From Arthrobacter sp. SO3 (GTDB lineage Bacteria; Actinomycetota; Actinomycetes; Actinomycetales; Micrococcaceae): 64,000 nt of DNA. Location of the stretch: NCBI RefSeq assembly GCF_020532825.1, contig NZ_MQTS01000021.1:1-64000 (forward strand), written 5' to 3'. The notes under the pieces are model-generated. The model was not told the origin of the DNA. It worked only from the letters and a program-made list of their open reading frames with translations, and did not search any database. Numbering within the stretch: the first letter of the stretch is position 1; the number at the start of each line of letters is the position of its first letter. Made by a program: the position numbers and the translations under genes. Below, one piece after another: positions 40,793-60,339 of this stretch.

Positions 40793-41016
40793 GGGTGCCT
40801 TGCTGAACCAATCGTTGAATCAGTGAACTGGGTGGATTGTGCCATCCAGGAAAGCCGGACGTTCGCGGCGGACGCCCCGGCGGCCTGAACAACAGCTAGA
40901 ATTGGCTCCGAACAAGAACTCAAACGTGACCAGGAGCGCGTTGACCGCCGGTGTATTCCTTCTTGCAGGATATCAAGCCAGGTCCCGCTCCTGTTCCCAG
41001 CCGCCCAGGAGGACCC

Positions 41017-41271
41017 GTGCCCGAGTCAAAGCGCCGCAAAAGGACCATTCCCGCCACGACGCAGACTTCCACCGCGCACGCGCACAAGCCGAACCCGGTC
41101 TGGTTCAAGCCGGTGATGTTCGGCCTGATGATCATCGGCCTCCTCTGGATCATCACCTTCTACATCAGCCAAGGCGCCTTCCCCGTCGCCGCCTGGGGAT
41201 CCGCGAACATCATCGCCGGCTTCGGCATCGCCATCATCGGCTTCCTGATGACCACCCGCTGGCGTTCCTGA
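41017..41271 (+). CDS. crgA: Cell division protein CrgA
   Basis: An 84-residue protein: a basic, soluble N-terminus (SKRRKRTIP) followed by NPVWFKPVMFGLMIIGLLWIITFYI and a second helix NIIAGFGIAIIGFLMTTRWRS, i.e. two membrane segments with a short loop. CrgA coordinates FtsZ-ring/septum proteins, including FtsQ, FtsI and PbpA, in actinobacteria. GTG start was chosen since AGGAGG lies 4 nt upstream; a longer frame from 40951 lacks support. Near the pbpA-pknB cluster, as in Mycobacterium. Confidence 0.92.
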   Translation: MPESKRRKRTIPATTQTSTAHAHKPNPVWFKPVMFGLMIIGLLWIITFYISQGAFPVAAWGSANIIAGFGIAIIGFLMTTRWRS

Positions 41272-41391: not shown

Positions 41392-41997
41392 ATGGCCCCG
41401 GCAGTATCCGGCTCGGTCCTCGGCGACGACGGCCTTGCCCGGCCCCCGTGGGCGGCCGTGGACCCGTTGCTGCGCGCATACTACGACACAGAGTGGGGGC
41501 TCCCGGTACGGGACGAGCAGGGCCTCTTCGAGCGCATCAGCCTCGAGGCGTTCCAGGCCGGGCTGTCCTGGGCCACGATCCTCCGGAAGAGGCCGGCATT
41601 CCGGACCGCCTTCCACGACTTCCATCCCGAGACGGTCGCCGCTTTCACTGAAACGGATGTCGAGCGTCTGCTCCTCGATACCGGAATCGTCCGCAACCGG
41701 CTCAAGATCCGGGCCGCCATCACCAACGCCCAGTCCACCATTGCTTTGAGGGACGACGGCGGACTGGTGGACTTCGTGTGGTCCTTCCAGCCGGAGTCCA
41801 CGCCGGAACCGGTCTCCCCTGCGGACATCCCAACCACCTCGGCCGAGTCGGTTGCCCTGTCCAAGGCGTTGCGGAAGCGGGGTTTCGCTTTCGTCGGACC
41901 CACCACGATGTACGCCCTGATGGAAGCGATCGGCATGATCGACACCCATCTCCTGGACAGCCACCGCCGGGGCAGCTCAGGCGTCTGGCCCCGCTGA
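41392..41997 (+). CDS. tag: DNA-3-methyladenine glycosylase I-like protein
   Basis: A 201-residue Tag-family base-excision enzyme, removing 3-methyladenine from DNA. It contains the family core AYYDTEWGLPVRDEQGLFERISLEAFQAGLSWATILRKR with the catalytic Glu in LEAFQ, then GFAFVGPTTMYALMEAIGMIDTH. The N-terminal Cys and the His, plus the C-terminal His/Cys that form the zinc snap in Escherichia coli Tag, are not visible: RPPW replaces RCxW, Y31 replaces His, and the C-terminus ends DSHRRGSSGVWPR. So the zinc site is probably lost, or partially lost. It directly precedes the DnaA-box array. Confidence 0.88.
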   Translation: MAPAVSGSVLGDDGLARPPWAAVDPLLRAYYDTEWGLPVRDEQGLFERISLEAFQAGLSWATILRKRPAFRTAFHDFHPETVAAFTETDVERLLLDTGIVRNRLKIRAAITNAQSTIALRDDGGLVDFVWSFQPESTPEPVSPADIPTTSAESVALSKALRKRGFAFVGPTTMYALMEAIGMIDTHLLDSHRRGSSGVWPR

Positions 41998-42008
41998 CGC
42001 AGCAGCGC

Positions 42009-42694
42009 TGTGCACAACTCCGGCCAAAGTTATCCACAATGTTGATAACTTTCCAGCGGCTCTGGCCGGTCCGGATGGCGTCCCCGCCGGTGCTGGCCCC
42101 AGGAAGCCCTTCCGTCGAACGAGAACCGGAGCCTATCGGGTCCGTGAGTTATTAACAGTGTGGATTCCCTGTGGATAAGTTCACAGGGCTCAGGGCCGCG
42201 CCCGGCTTGGCAGCCGTGGCACGCGATGTCCGCACCATCTCAGGCCAGCGTGCGGCCCGGGGAAAGTTATCCACTTAACAACAACTCAGTACCCACAACT
42301 TATCCACAGCTGGGGATAACCCGGCCAGACGAGGGGATTCCGCCGGTTTCTGGCGCCATACGGCGCCAATTCCATCCGGGATACTTGGAGCGACAAGTTA
42401 TTAACATTGTGAATAACCCTGTTGAAATCTGATTTGTGCCGGGAGTGGCCCGGTGGGGACAGCGCAGCGTCGCCGCCCTCCCGCGCCTGATACCCACCGG
42501 AAGCCGGCTTGCGGAGCTTTTCCCCGGCGGCGTTGTCCACTTAACCACAGGCCCGCCCACAGGAGTTATCCACAATTGTGGAGATCGGGAAGTGCCGCGG
42601 AACAAAATCGCCCGGTGTGGCCCTCAGATCCGCACCGCCCGCACGAACTACAGCCGTGTAAGTTACCAACAGTGTGGATAACCCCTGTGGACAA
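42009..42694. other. Array of DnaA-box modules in the tag-rhomboid intergenic region
   Basis: The gene-free stretch 41998-42891 holds five exact copies of TTATCCACA or its complement (42030, 42170, 42300, 42566, 42673) and one TTGTCCACA complement (42686), plus one-mismatch copies at 42267, 42311, 42408 and 42533. They fall into six modules starting near 42029, 42147, 42267, 42396, 42533 and 42661, that is every 118-137 bp. Modules 2, 4 and 6 resemble each other (AGTTATTAACAGTGTGGATT-like), as do 3 and 5 (TTATCCACTTAAC-like). No open frame of note. DnaA binding is inferred. Confidence 0.75.
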
Positions 42695-42778
42695 CCCCCG
42701 AGAGGACGGTGGATCCTGGCCTGCACCGGCCGCGGTGAGGGCCGCGGTGGGGGCCTCGGCCAGGCGGCAGCACCCGCC

Positions 42779-42806
42779 AAAAAAAGCGCGTCCGTCAGGA
42801 CGCGCT
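42779..42806 (-). terminator. Rho-independent terminator of the ppiA-rhomboid genes
   Basis: On the minus strand AGCGCGTCC, TGAC loop, then GGACGCGCT followed by seven T. Perfect 9-bp stem. It lies 86 bp after the rhomboid stop. Confidence 0.85.
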
Positions 42807-42891
42807 GTGGAAAATCAAGACACGCTGTGGGAAACCCTCAGGCAGGGCGGGCAGGGCGGAGTGGGGCAGAGTGGGGAACGGGCGGCGCGGT

Positions 42892-43773
42892 CTAGGCGCC
42901 GGCGACTCGGAGGGCGGAGACGGCGACGAGCAGGGCCAGTACCGCCACCAGGCCGCAGGCCTGCAACAGCCCCTGTCGCGGACCGCGGGGCGTGTACACA
43001 ATAACGGCCGCACACAGGGCACCTGTGACTGCACCACCAAGGTGCGCCTGCCAGGCAATCGAGGGGACCACAAACCCGATGACGCCGTTGATGATGATCA
43101 ACACCCAGAGTTGCCGGGTGTCGCCGCCGCGGCGGCGCTGGACCACCAGCATGGCGCCGAAGAGGCCGAAAATGGCGCCGGAAGCGCCCACGACTCCGGT
43201 GAGGGGCTGGCCCGGAACATACCCCGGCGTCAGCAGGAGGAAGCCCGCCGATCCGCCGAAGGCGGACAACAAATAGACCGCCAGGAACCGGATGCGGCCC
43301 AGGAGCGGCTCGAGTGCCTGGCCAAACACCCACAGCATGTACATGTTGAGCACAATGTGGAGGATGAAGCCCTGGGAATGGAGAAAGGCCGACGTCACCA
43401 TCCGCCACGGTTCGAACACCCCGTATTCCGGGGAGGCATAGACGGTGGCGAATGCCAGGTTCTGATAGATCAGGTCGCCGGGGACCAGCCACTGGAGCGC
43501 AAAGACCGCGGCGCAGAGCCCGATGATGAAGTAGGTGACCAGCGGTTTGCCGGTGGCCACGGCGCCGCCGTAGACGGTCCTGACGTCCGGCGTCGTGCGT
43601 TTTGTTTCGTTGACACAGTCAACGCACTGGAATCCGACGGCGGCCGCCCGCTGGCAGTCGGGGCACGCAGGGCGCCCGCAGCGCTGGCAGCGCACATAGG
43701 CGGGCCGGTCCGGGTGCCGGGGGCACACCGGAATCTGCGCGGACGGCTCTGCCGCCGGAATTCCGTAGCTCAT
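42892..43773 (-). CDS. Rhomboid-family intramembrane serine protease with zinc-ribbon N-terminus
   Basis: A 293-residue membrane protease. Residues 17-53 hold seven Cys in CxxC-like spacing (B-box/zinc-ribbon; C17, C29, C32, C37, C40, C50, C53). Then six or more membrane helices: N143 in HIVLNMYML, nucleophile S198 in GASGAIFG, and H244 in AHLGG form the catalytic residues. It cleaves membrane segments of unknown targets. Follows the cyclophilin gene by 9 bp on the same strand, so it is in one transcript. Confidence 0.93.
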   Translation of the reverse strand: MSYGIPAAEPSAQIPVCPRHPDRPAYVRCQRCGRPACPDCQRAAAVGFQCVDCVNETKRTTPDVRTVYGGAVATGKPLVTYFIIGLCAAVFALQWLVPGDLIYQNLAFATVYASPEYGVFEPWRMVTSAFLHSQGFILHIVLNMYMLWVFGQALEPLLGRIRFLAVYLLSAFGGSAGFLLLTPGYVPGQPLTGVVGASGAIFGLFGAMLVVQRRRGGDTRQLWVLIIINGVIGFVVPSIAWQAHLGGAVTGALCAAVIVYTPRGPRQGLLQACGLVAVLALLVAVSALRVAGA

Positions 43774-58394: not shown

Positions 58395-58914
58395 GGAAGG
58401 GTGCCGCCTTTCATTGCTGCTGTCATCGCTGGTGGCCGGGCCACCGGCCCGGCAGGGAATCACAAAAGATGTCCAGGACGGACACACTGCAGACAGCTTA
58501 GCCGCAAGAAGTGTGATTCTCCCATCCCCGGGTTACATCCATGTGGTTCGGCCTGCCCGGCCTGGTGCCGGTTTCCGGCCAGGGTCCGGGACGGTCCTGG
58601 CGGCGTGTGGGGTCCGGAACGAAGTTGTTATTTGAGGGAATTTCATTTTCTAGGGATTAGTAGTGTTAATAACTGCTGTGGATACTGTGGATAACCCTGT
58701 TTGGCGGTGCGATCCCGGGGTTAAGCCCTGTTCATGGACTGTGGGTGGAACAGGTTTTAAACAGGGTGTGGATGGGGATAACATTTTTGGCCGCACCGTT
58801 GATCCACAGGCGCCTTAAGGGTTTTAAGCCCATTAACCGCGGTTGTCCCCTTAACTATCCACAGGCTTGTCCACAGGTGCCTGTTAATAAGGTAAGAGTG
58901 CGCGGACGGGCAGC
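58395..58914. other. oriC: oriC, dnaA-dnaN intergenic region with DnaA boxes
   Basis: 520 bp without a gene. DnaA boxes: exact TGTGGATAA at 58686-58694, exact TTGTCCACA at 58867-58875, and single-mismatch boxes at 58677, 58773, 58800 and 58855. Around 58640-58680 and 58750-58790 are AT-rich tracts (TTAATAACTG, TTTTAAACAGG). Typical of actinobacterial oriC. The side near dnaN (58395-58620) has no obvious boxes. Confidence 0.85.
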
Positions 58915-60339
58915 TCAGGAATTGCGCTGCTGCTGCTTGATCCGGTTGGTCAGCTCGGTCACCTGGTTGTAGATCACTCGGCGCTCGGCCATCAGCTCAC
59001 GGATCTTGCGGTCCGCGTGGATGACAGTGGTGTGGTCGCGGCCGCCGAGCTCCTGCCCGATCTTGGGAAGGGACATGTCCGTGAGTTCGCGGCACAGGTA
59101 CATGGCGATCTGCCTGGCGGTCACCAGTGTCCTGGTCCGTGACTTGCTGCAGAGCTCTTCCATGCTGAGCTTGAAGTAGTCGGCAGTCTGCGTGAGGATC
59201 TGCGCGGAAGTGATCTCCTGGGCTCCGTCATCGGTGATGAGGTCCTTGAGCACCATCTCAGCCAGGGCAACGTCGACCGGCTGGCGGTTGAGGCTGGCGA
59301 AGGCCGTGACGCGGATCAGGGCCCCCTCCAACTCGCGGATGTTGCTCGAGATCTTCGAAGCGATGTATTCCAGGGCATCGTCCGGAGCGGAGAGGCCCTC
59401 ACTGAGGGCCTTCTTCCGGAGGATCGCGATCCGGGTTTCGAGTTCCGGCGGCTGGATGTCCGTCAGCAGGCCCCACTCGAACCGCGACTTCATCCGGTCC
59501 TCAAATCCGGCAAGCAGCTTGGGCGGCTGATCTGAGGTGATGACCACCTGCTTGTTGTTGTTGTGCAGGGCGTTGAAAGTGTGGAAGAACTCCTCCAGCG
59601 TCCGGTCCTTGCCGGCCAGGAACTGGATGTCATCGATCAGCAGCACGTCCACGTTGCGGTAGGTCGTTTTGAAGCTGGTGCCTTCATCGTCACGGATGGA
59701 GTTGATGAAGTCGTTGGTGAATTCCTCGGAGTTCACGTATCGGACCCGGATCCCGCTGTAGAGCCGGCGGGCGTAGTGGCCGATCGCATGGAGCAGGTGG
59801 GTCTTGCCCAGCCCCGAGTCTCCGTAGATGAAGAGCGGGTTGTAGGCCTTCGCCGGCGCTTCAGCCACCGCGACGGCGGCGGCGTGGGCAAAGCGGTTGG
59901 AGGACCCGATCACGAAGGTGTCGAAGACATACTTCGGATTGAGGCGGCCAAATTCGTGGGAGGTGCTTGGCAGCATCGGCTGCGGCTTCAGTTCCACCGA
60001 GGGATCGGACACGAGGGACAGCTCGACGGCGGGTTCCGGCTCGGTGTGGAGCGGCACCAGATCGGTGTCGACGTCGATTGCGCAACGGATTTCGTCGGAG
60101 AAGACGTTCCGGAGGGCGTCGTCGAGGGCGTCCTTCACCTGCGTTTGCAGTACTTCGCGGGTGAGCTCATTGGGAACGGCCACCAGCAGGGTGGACCCGA
60201 TGAGGCCCTGCGCCTGGGCGAGGATGACAAAGCCGCGCTGCCGGGGTGTTACACGGTGGTCGTTCTCCAGGAGGCTCACGACCCGCCGCCAGGAACTTCC
60301 GACAGTGTTGGCTTGGTTGGCTTCGTCTACTGTCATCAA
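58915..60339 (-). CDS. dnaA: Chromosomal replication initiator DnaA
   Basis: A 474-residue AAA+ initiator. Domain I about 1-85; linker; domain III with Walker A GDSGLGKT (173-180), Walker [10 protein letters not shown] (231-239), sensor parts TSDQPPKLL; domain IV with the DnaA signature [15 protein letters not shown] near the C-terminus binds DnaA boxes. Two consecutive ATGs open the gene; either may be used. Confidence 0.97.

Follow-up and report, generated by a model that had tools for sequence, protein, structure and literature searches.

A DnaA-box array with a conserved core element and palindrome near the replication origin of Arthrobacter sp. SO3

We analysed a 64,000-nucleotide stretch of Arthrobacter sp. 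SO3 (NCBI RefSeq assembly GCF_020532825.1, contig NZ_MQTS01000021.1, positions 1 to 64,000 of the forward strand; hereafter, the window), in which tag and a rhomboid gene converge on an 894-bp gap (41998-42891) containing a dense array of DnaA boxes 16 kb from dnaA (58915-60339, minus strand). Here we describe the boxes, their geometry, their conservation and the placement of a palindrome, T, that accompanies them (Table 1). The gap contains six exact boxes, defined as TTATCCACA or TTGTCCACA (together TTRTCCACA), and eight boxes with one mismatch, which were counted separately; most fall into six modules. Specifically, exact TTATCCACA boxes are located at 42030 (+), 42170 (−), 42300 (+), 42566 (+), and 42673 (−); the single exact TTGTCCACA box is located at 42686 (−); and one-mismatch boxes are located at 42009, 42040, 42267, 42311, 42408, 42533, 42541, and 42806, the last of these beyond the interval 42009-42694 to which the array had first been assigned. 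The original prediction, made from the DNA letters, had counted five exact TTATCCACA boxes, one exact TTGTCCACA box, and several one-mismatch boxes in six modules of two alternating types; our box scan recovers the same counts, and the modules are as described.

First-order Markov simulations of this stretch (n = 500) gave a mean of 0.01 exact boxes (maximum 1) and 0.25 one-mismatch boxes (maximum 3) for the gap. The genome (4.75 Mb in 248 contigs) contains 64 exact TTRTCCACA boxes (24 TTATCCACA and 40 TTGTCCACA), six of which are packed into the 665 bp of the array. The remainder of the window, excluding the array and the two stretches flanking dnaA, contains 0 exact boxes and 16 one-mismatch boxes. 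The gap is also gene-free, as originally claimed: tag (+) and rhomboid (−) both end into it, and open reading frames of 80-183 amino acids are readable across it, none of which we regard as a gene. No promoter-like site was found in the gap. The sole terminator-like site (42785-42806) lies where rhomboid would end, about one such site being expected by chance, and a search for structured RNA gave no Rfam match at the gathering score (two weak matches, E = 0.15 and 0.66).

Table 1. Features of the DnaA-box array, its neighbouring genes, and T sites in the window
Feature	Position	Strand	Evidence
Core composite: box, 4 bp, box, 1 bp, inverted box, 1 bp, 16-bp palindrome T	42646..42694	-	R1, 51.2 bits, E 7e-15 (copy included among the 27 of R1 training alignment A3)
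Palindrome T of core (TTACACGGCTGTAGTT)	42646..42661	-	Alignment A3; T search
Exact core box TTATCCACA	42673..42681	-	Box scan
Exact core box TTGTCCACA	42686..42694	-	Box scan
Module 1, type A: head-to-head boxes TTATCCACA-A-TGTTGATAA	42028..42051	+	Box scan, relatives; R1, 17.6 bits
Module 2, type A: three boxes, core-like, without clear T	42144..42178	-	R1, 21.2 bits
Module 3, type B: TTATCCACTTAAC...TTATCCACA..TGGGGATAA	42267..42319	+	Box scan, relatives; R1, 13.8 bits
Module 4, type A	42395..42422	-	R1, 15.1 bits; relatives
Module 5, type B: TTGTCCACTTAACCACA...TTATCCACA	42533..42583	+	Box scan, relatives; R1, 20.9 bits
Weak box TTTTCCACA adjoining terminator-like site	42806..42814	-	Box scan
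DnaA box abutting T palindrome, upstream of dnaA	60501..60525	+	T search, inspected loci
Third T-like palindrome of the genome, in dnaA-dnaN gap (oriC), close to dnaN start	58533..58548	+	T search
tag, methyladenine glycosylase, 3' end at array	41392..41997	+	Pfam Adenine_glyco
Rhomboid gene, convergent with tag	42892..43773	-	Pfam Rhomboid
crgA, start inferred inside open reading frame 40951-41271	41017..41271	+	Pfam CrgA

The array is conserved among close relatives. A scan with the rhomboid protein returned, as the best 80 of 402 relatives, loci from Arthrobacter, Pseudarthrobacter, and Paenarthrobacter, 77 of which are assessable (L014, L031, and L042 are without tag on the contig; two organisms gave two loci each). 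All 77 assessable loci contain 3-9 exact and 2-10 one-mismatch boxes in the gap. In 79 of the 80, the boxes of the densest 900-bp window fall where the rhomboid match ends or further downstream, in almost every case within the gap (L031 ends there). In an alignment of 17 hand-picked arrays, identity to the window is 93% in box columns and 51% in spacer columns.

The regular spacing originally claimed does not hold as one period, and strict helical phasing (judged by eye) was likewise dropped; the distances are module-specific. What does hold is that the four middle distances (97, 141, 124-125, and 140 bp) are fixed, being equal to within 1 bp in the window and four relatives (L009, L010, L013, and L024), with outer distances that vary in the same set (first, 160-173 bp; last, 110-133 bp). 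In the stretch corresponding to the weak box TTTTCCACA of the window, three of these relatives (L009, L010, and L013) carry an exact TTATCCACA. Other clades have different module distances, or gaps enlarged up to 4.7 kb; the rhomboid-tag gap measures 4.3-4.7 kb in L051, L073, and L077, and 2.2-3.0 kb in L047, L076, and L019.

The array contains a 49-bp core element, missing from the original prediction, in which three DnaA boxes in fixed order are followed by the 16-bp palindrome T. Read from rhomboid towards crgA, the consensus is TTATCCACA, 4 bp, TTATCCACA, 1 bp, an inverted box, 0-1 bp, and a palindrome near TTACACNNGTGTAATT. The composite was first spotted by printing short gaps and was then scored by a script with matrices retrained on those gaps. 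The script found it in diverse families and gave the window a score of 68.5, the best shuffle scoring 17.4 (one shuffle per gap); low-scoring rows are unconvincing, including most loci of Streptomyces-like genomes (this label and the label mycobacteria-like being our own inference from gene content and genome size). We then used R1, a sequence-only profile built from the 27 aligned copies of alignment A3. The core is the full-length R1 match in the window. Modules 1-5 match as partial copies (13.8-21.2 bits), consistent with growth of the array from the core.

The boxes recur at this locus across the class. Of 198 genomes from the order, 187 have a rhomboid match, as do 240 of 246 from the class; 80 stretches were hand-picked from genomes with such a match, and 64 of the 80 keep rhomboid convergent with crgA (or tag). 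The 64 syntenic gaps (36.8 kb) contain 111 exact and 167 one-mismatch boxes, versus 2 and 24 for the reversed motif; without the six stretches of the window's genus, the remaining 58 gaps contain 78 and 112, versus 2 and 15. At least one box with 0-1 mismatch is present in 55 of those 58, and Streptomyces-like stretches L129-L136 have three exact boxes each (8/8). Five mycobacteria-like stretches in which rhomboid is at another locus have 0 boxes downstream of rhomboid, and the crgA 3' end carries boxes in ten mycobacteria-like genomes (loci fetched with PF06781), with an exact box in nine. R1 matches at E ≤ 1e-3 in 41 of 69 searched in-class loci, 40 of the 41 being at the locus by reading (L122 is not). 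The match runs through T in 29 in-class loci, 16 of them outside the training set. In L099, L103, and L127, crgA is elsewhere in the stretch and the element is still at rhomboid, which argues that the element is an independent locus. A tie to crgA alone was dropped, the element being with rhomboid also in stretches that yielded no crgA (L100, L101, L108, and L126). One genome, of the same family, carries two near-complete core copies about 4.3 kb apart (L098, 10473-10518 and 14752-14800).

The core extends beyond the class. R1 matches at E ≤ 0.1 in 152 of 298 phylum genomes, many matches being weak and box-only. The 30 best R1 loci are all at the array locus (28 with crgA, L185 with rhomboid and tag, and L208 with rhomboid); nine of the 30 are from genomes used for training. 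Among 20 out-of-class genomes, picked mainly for having an R1 match, 18 have crgA, and in 16 of the 18 a distance of 2-402 bp separates the match from the 3' end of crgA; the other neighbours differ in the three genomes whose surroundings were read. In the five out-of-class genomes with match and dnaA on one contig, the two are 11-41 kb apart. We take the core, with its three boxes in fixed order and spacing and its T, to be old in Actinomycetota, the Arthrobacter group having it within a larger tag-rhomboid array of type A and type B modules.

Palindrome T marks this locus and, in the window's genus, a second locus at dnaA. In mycobacteria-like genomes, the strict palindrome ATCACANNNGTGTGAT occurs in 31 of 40, at one place each, with 0 control matches; 29 of the 30 matches inspected lie beside crgA and one (L245) lies elsewhere. 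A search of 41 genomes belonging to the window's genus for TTACAYNNNTGTRGTT found 78 matches, versus 1 for the control; 40 of the 41 are positive, and G725 has no match. Inspection of 30 loci in the genus, one per genome, placed 10 between crgA and rhomboid, 15 upstream of dnaA, 1 between dnaA and dnaN (L311), and 4 at contig ends, 75-174 bp from the last base, which fit the site upstream of dnaA. All 60 inspected matches thus comprise 39 at the array locus, 16 at dnaA, 4 at contig ends fitting dnaA, and 1 elsewhere. The distance from T to the start of the dnaA match is 188-192 bp in 14 of the 15 dnaA-upstream loci, and T abuts an exact TTATCCACA in 18 of the 19 dnaA-side cases printed, as in the window. 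Many of the uninspected matches lie about 17 kb from the first match, and a few are far away or on other contigs (e.g. G705:C6 and G735:C1:313210).

The core element has a known mycobacterial counterpart, likewise missing from the original prediction. We take Rv0011c to be crgA. DnaA binding has been mapped in M. tuberculosis in vitro and in M. smegmatis by chromatin immunoprecipitation sequencing (Hicks et al. 2020, PMC7738170). DnaA binds Rv0010c-Rv0011c, variants there phenocopy dnaA variants, and the authors leave titration or nucleotide exchange as options for the site's role (PMC7738170). The mycobacterial site and the window share a place near dnaA at the crgA 3' end, with tag intervening between crgA and the array in the window, and share the three-box and palindrome composite (A3, R1), the comparison being with the crgA flanks of mycobacteria-like genomes, not knowingly with M. 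tuberculosis. They differ in that the mycobacterial site has one core copy and the Arthrobacter site a module array. The parts of PMC7738170 drawn on describe neither conservation outside mycobacteria nor a T pair at dnaA.

In mycobacteria, a further DnaA site lies upstream of dnaB (PMC7738170), and the genome of Arthrobacter sp. SO3 has box clusters at the counterparts of four of the five mycobacterial DnaA sites: oriC, dnaA upstream, dnaB upstream, and the array. The cluster just upstream of dnaB (Pfam DnaB) has two exact and five one-mismatch boxes (G000 C104 43319-43773; L281 2820-3274). A separate cluster of two exact and four one-mismatch boxes lies amid five parS sites with 0-1 mismatch (G000 C104 91469-91902; L282 1970-2403), probably on the parAB side of the origin, adjoining the right end of the window.

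We consider that the array is probably an origin-proximal DnaA control site, a DNA scaffold that is neither a gene nor an origin. This reading fits best because DnaA binds the mycobacterial member, where variants mimic those of dnaA itself and place the site in the dnaA pathway, because the cluster is present in every assessable relative, and because the array lies between convergent 3' ends. The part of the original prediction that proposed a DnaA titration or regulatory site, datA- or DARS-like in function, therefore fits best, and the part that proposed a second or ancestral origin is not supported. By analogy with the mycobacterial member, DnaA would bind at the Arthrobacter array, and a factor that binds T presumably exists. 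DnaA would assemble on the boxes beside the factor held at T, and the array modules would add capacity. The fixed three-box geometry together with a T partner suggests that the site forms an ordered complex and is more than a sink for DnaA. Some 190 bp upstream of dnaA, at the box-T pair, the same factor would again join DnaA; there, the juxtaposition of T and a box suggests that this partner acts too. Lying 16 kb from oriC, the array would be copied soon after initiation, so that the number of sites would double early; the array would lower free or active DnaA and thereby limit re-initiation. Given such early copying, negative feedback on DnaA is the simplest role, and lowering DnaA and limiting re-initiation is the most likely direction of effect. 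As candidates for T, BldD-type and CRP-type sites seem not to fit. HigA2 of M. tuberculosis binds an Rv0010c oligonucleotide in vitro, at a site that coincides with the DnaA site according to the authors (PMC11205783); HigA2 seems to us too restricted in its distribution to serve as a general factor for T.

Clusters near the origin have precedents. In both B. subtilis and S. coelicolor, box clusters outside yet near oriC are said to repress untimely initiation (Okumura 2012 and Smulczyk-Krawczyszyn 2006, as cited in PMC4585315 and PMC5295017); removal of six B. subtilis clusters is reported to cause early initiation (PMC5295017), and in E. coli, DnaA boxes accumulate near oriC and titration has been argued (Olivi et al. 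2025, PMC12371093). The array likewise has dense boxes outside yet near oriC. It differs in its fixed composite and palindrome, neither of which is mentioned in the parts of PMC4585315 and PMC5295017 drawn on. The datA locus of E. coli is also a non-coding DnaA-box locus that regulates initiation, but it has tRNA-Gly genes and queG as neighbours and is IHF-dependent; the array locus is not syntenic with glyV-X-Y / queG.

Several observations weigh against a control site of this kind. A literature search found no DnaA binding or phenotype data for Arthrobacter. Three of the 58 syntenic gaps outside the window's genus have no box with 0-1 mismatch (L105, L122, and L159), and four have a single box (L106, L117, L118, and L167). 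R1 has no match at E 0.1 in 146 of the 298 phylum genomes, the match in G522 is not at crgA, and in G444 the crgA-linked match is weak (19.6 bits) and 337 kb away from dnaA. Strict T is absent from 9 of the 40 mycobacteria-like genomes and is degenerate or displaced in the Streptomyces-like loci. A class-wide sample of 18 genomes gave T-like sites (>15 bits) at dnaA/oriC in just four, none of the four being mycobacteria- or Streptomyces-like, so that T at dnaA/oriC is unsupported as a class-wide rule; in this sample, the stretch ended close upstream of dnaA in G293, G289, G199, and G397. Another three stretches (G122, G240, and L103) were without a dnaA match. The B. subtilis clusters have been said to be insignificant in role, unlike the E. 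coli loci (PMC5295017). Finally, Hicks et al. compare the mycobacterial phenotypes to those of decreased-activity dnaA variants of other bacteria (PMC7738170), so that the normal role of the site could be to support DnaA, as a DARS would.

That last possibility leads to the strongest rival: the three-box core would make ADP-DnaA release ADP, raising active DnaA before the next round, with T holding an architectural partner. DARS has a three-box core (PMC4245941), and in our own reading of the E. coli sequence its boxes have the same order of orientations as those of the array core, one box facing two tandem boxes. The fixed geometry and the partner palindrome exceed what titration needs, and the mycobacterial variants that phenocopy dnaA variants may mimic reduced DnaA activity (PMC7738170). 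The topology is thus alike, but box offsets are 10 and 13 in the array core versus 14 and 12 in DARS1, as read from the E. coli genome, and on spacing the array was not assigned to DARS. Moreover, the E. coli DARS sites are far from oriC (PMC5295017), IHF and Fis act at DARS2, and an array resembles capacity more than catalysis. We regard DARS-like reactivation as unlikely, though it deserves to be taken seriously.

A role for DnaA as a transcription regulator or roadblock for crgA, tag, and rhomboid, linking replication to division via CrgA, is improbable. The recurrence of the element beside crgA outside the class, with other neighbours that differ, would suit it, as would the description of CrgA in Pfam as a cell division protein. 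The array, however, lies between convergent 3' ends, a promoter search gave no site in the window, the element remains at rhomboid where crgA is elsewhere, and expression of Rv0010c and Rv0011c is unaltered in mycobacterial dnaA mutants (PMC7738170).

A second, ancestral, or part-time replication origin, although the array has six exact boxes versus two in the dnaA-dnaN gap and one upstream of dnaA and the cumulative GC skew of the window reaches its minimum (49-50 kb) between the array and the dnaA sites, is so improbable that we reject it because of AT content (AT-richest 50-mer 66% in the array, largely module sequence, versus 72% in the dnaA-dnaN gap, so that no AT-rich unwinding region was found; mean AT 37% versus 45%), gene orientation (gyrA, gyrB, recF, dnaN, and dnaA read towards the array and would meet a fork from it head-on), and coexistence with a box-rich dnaA-dnaN gap (11-16 one-mismatch boxes in two Streptomyces-like genomes with the homologous locus). 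We gave the GC skew no weight, as its minimum falls between the two sites, and tentatively attribute its sign changes to gene strand. In Kocuria rhizophila, the putative oriC is between dnaA and dnaN (PMC12500396).

Returning to the origin-proximal DnaA control site, we tentatively propose, as an idea with rather less than an even chance of proving right, that the locus is an initiation-control locus of Actinomycetota's own kind, at which DnaA and a dedicated dimeric T-reading protein would form a composite complex on the crgA-linked element. In Arthrobacter-type genomes, a second complex upstream of dnaA would complete a two-site circuit that sets both the supply and the activity of DnaA, the first site having been amplified into an array by the Arthrobacter group. 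The mycobacterial member, the Rv0010c-Rv0011c DnaA site, is already known (PMC7738170). Our searches of open-licence papers turned up neither the phylum-wide composite nor the paired T sites nor the Arthrobacter array, and no crgA-linked DnaA element outside mycobacteria.

How actinobacteria limit initiation is poorly known, and the array locus recurs across the class and beyond. To our knowledge, homologues of the main E. coli DnaA regulators (SeqA, Hda, and DiaA) are absent from actinobacteria. The Arthrobacter array is large enough for a clean deletion or transplant, and palindrome T provides a bait for a DnaA partner that may act in many important actinobacteria.
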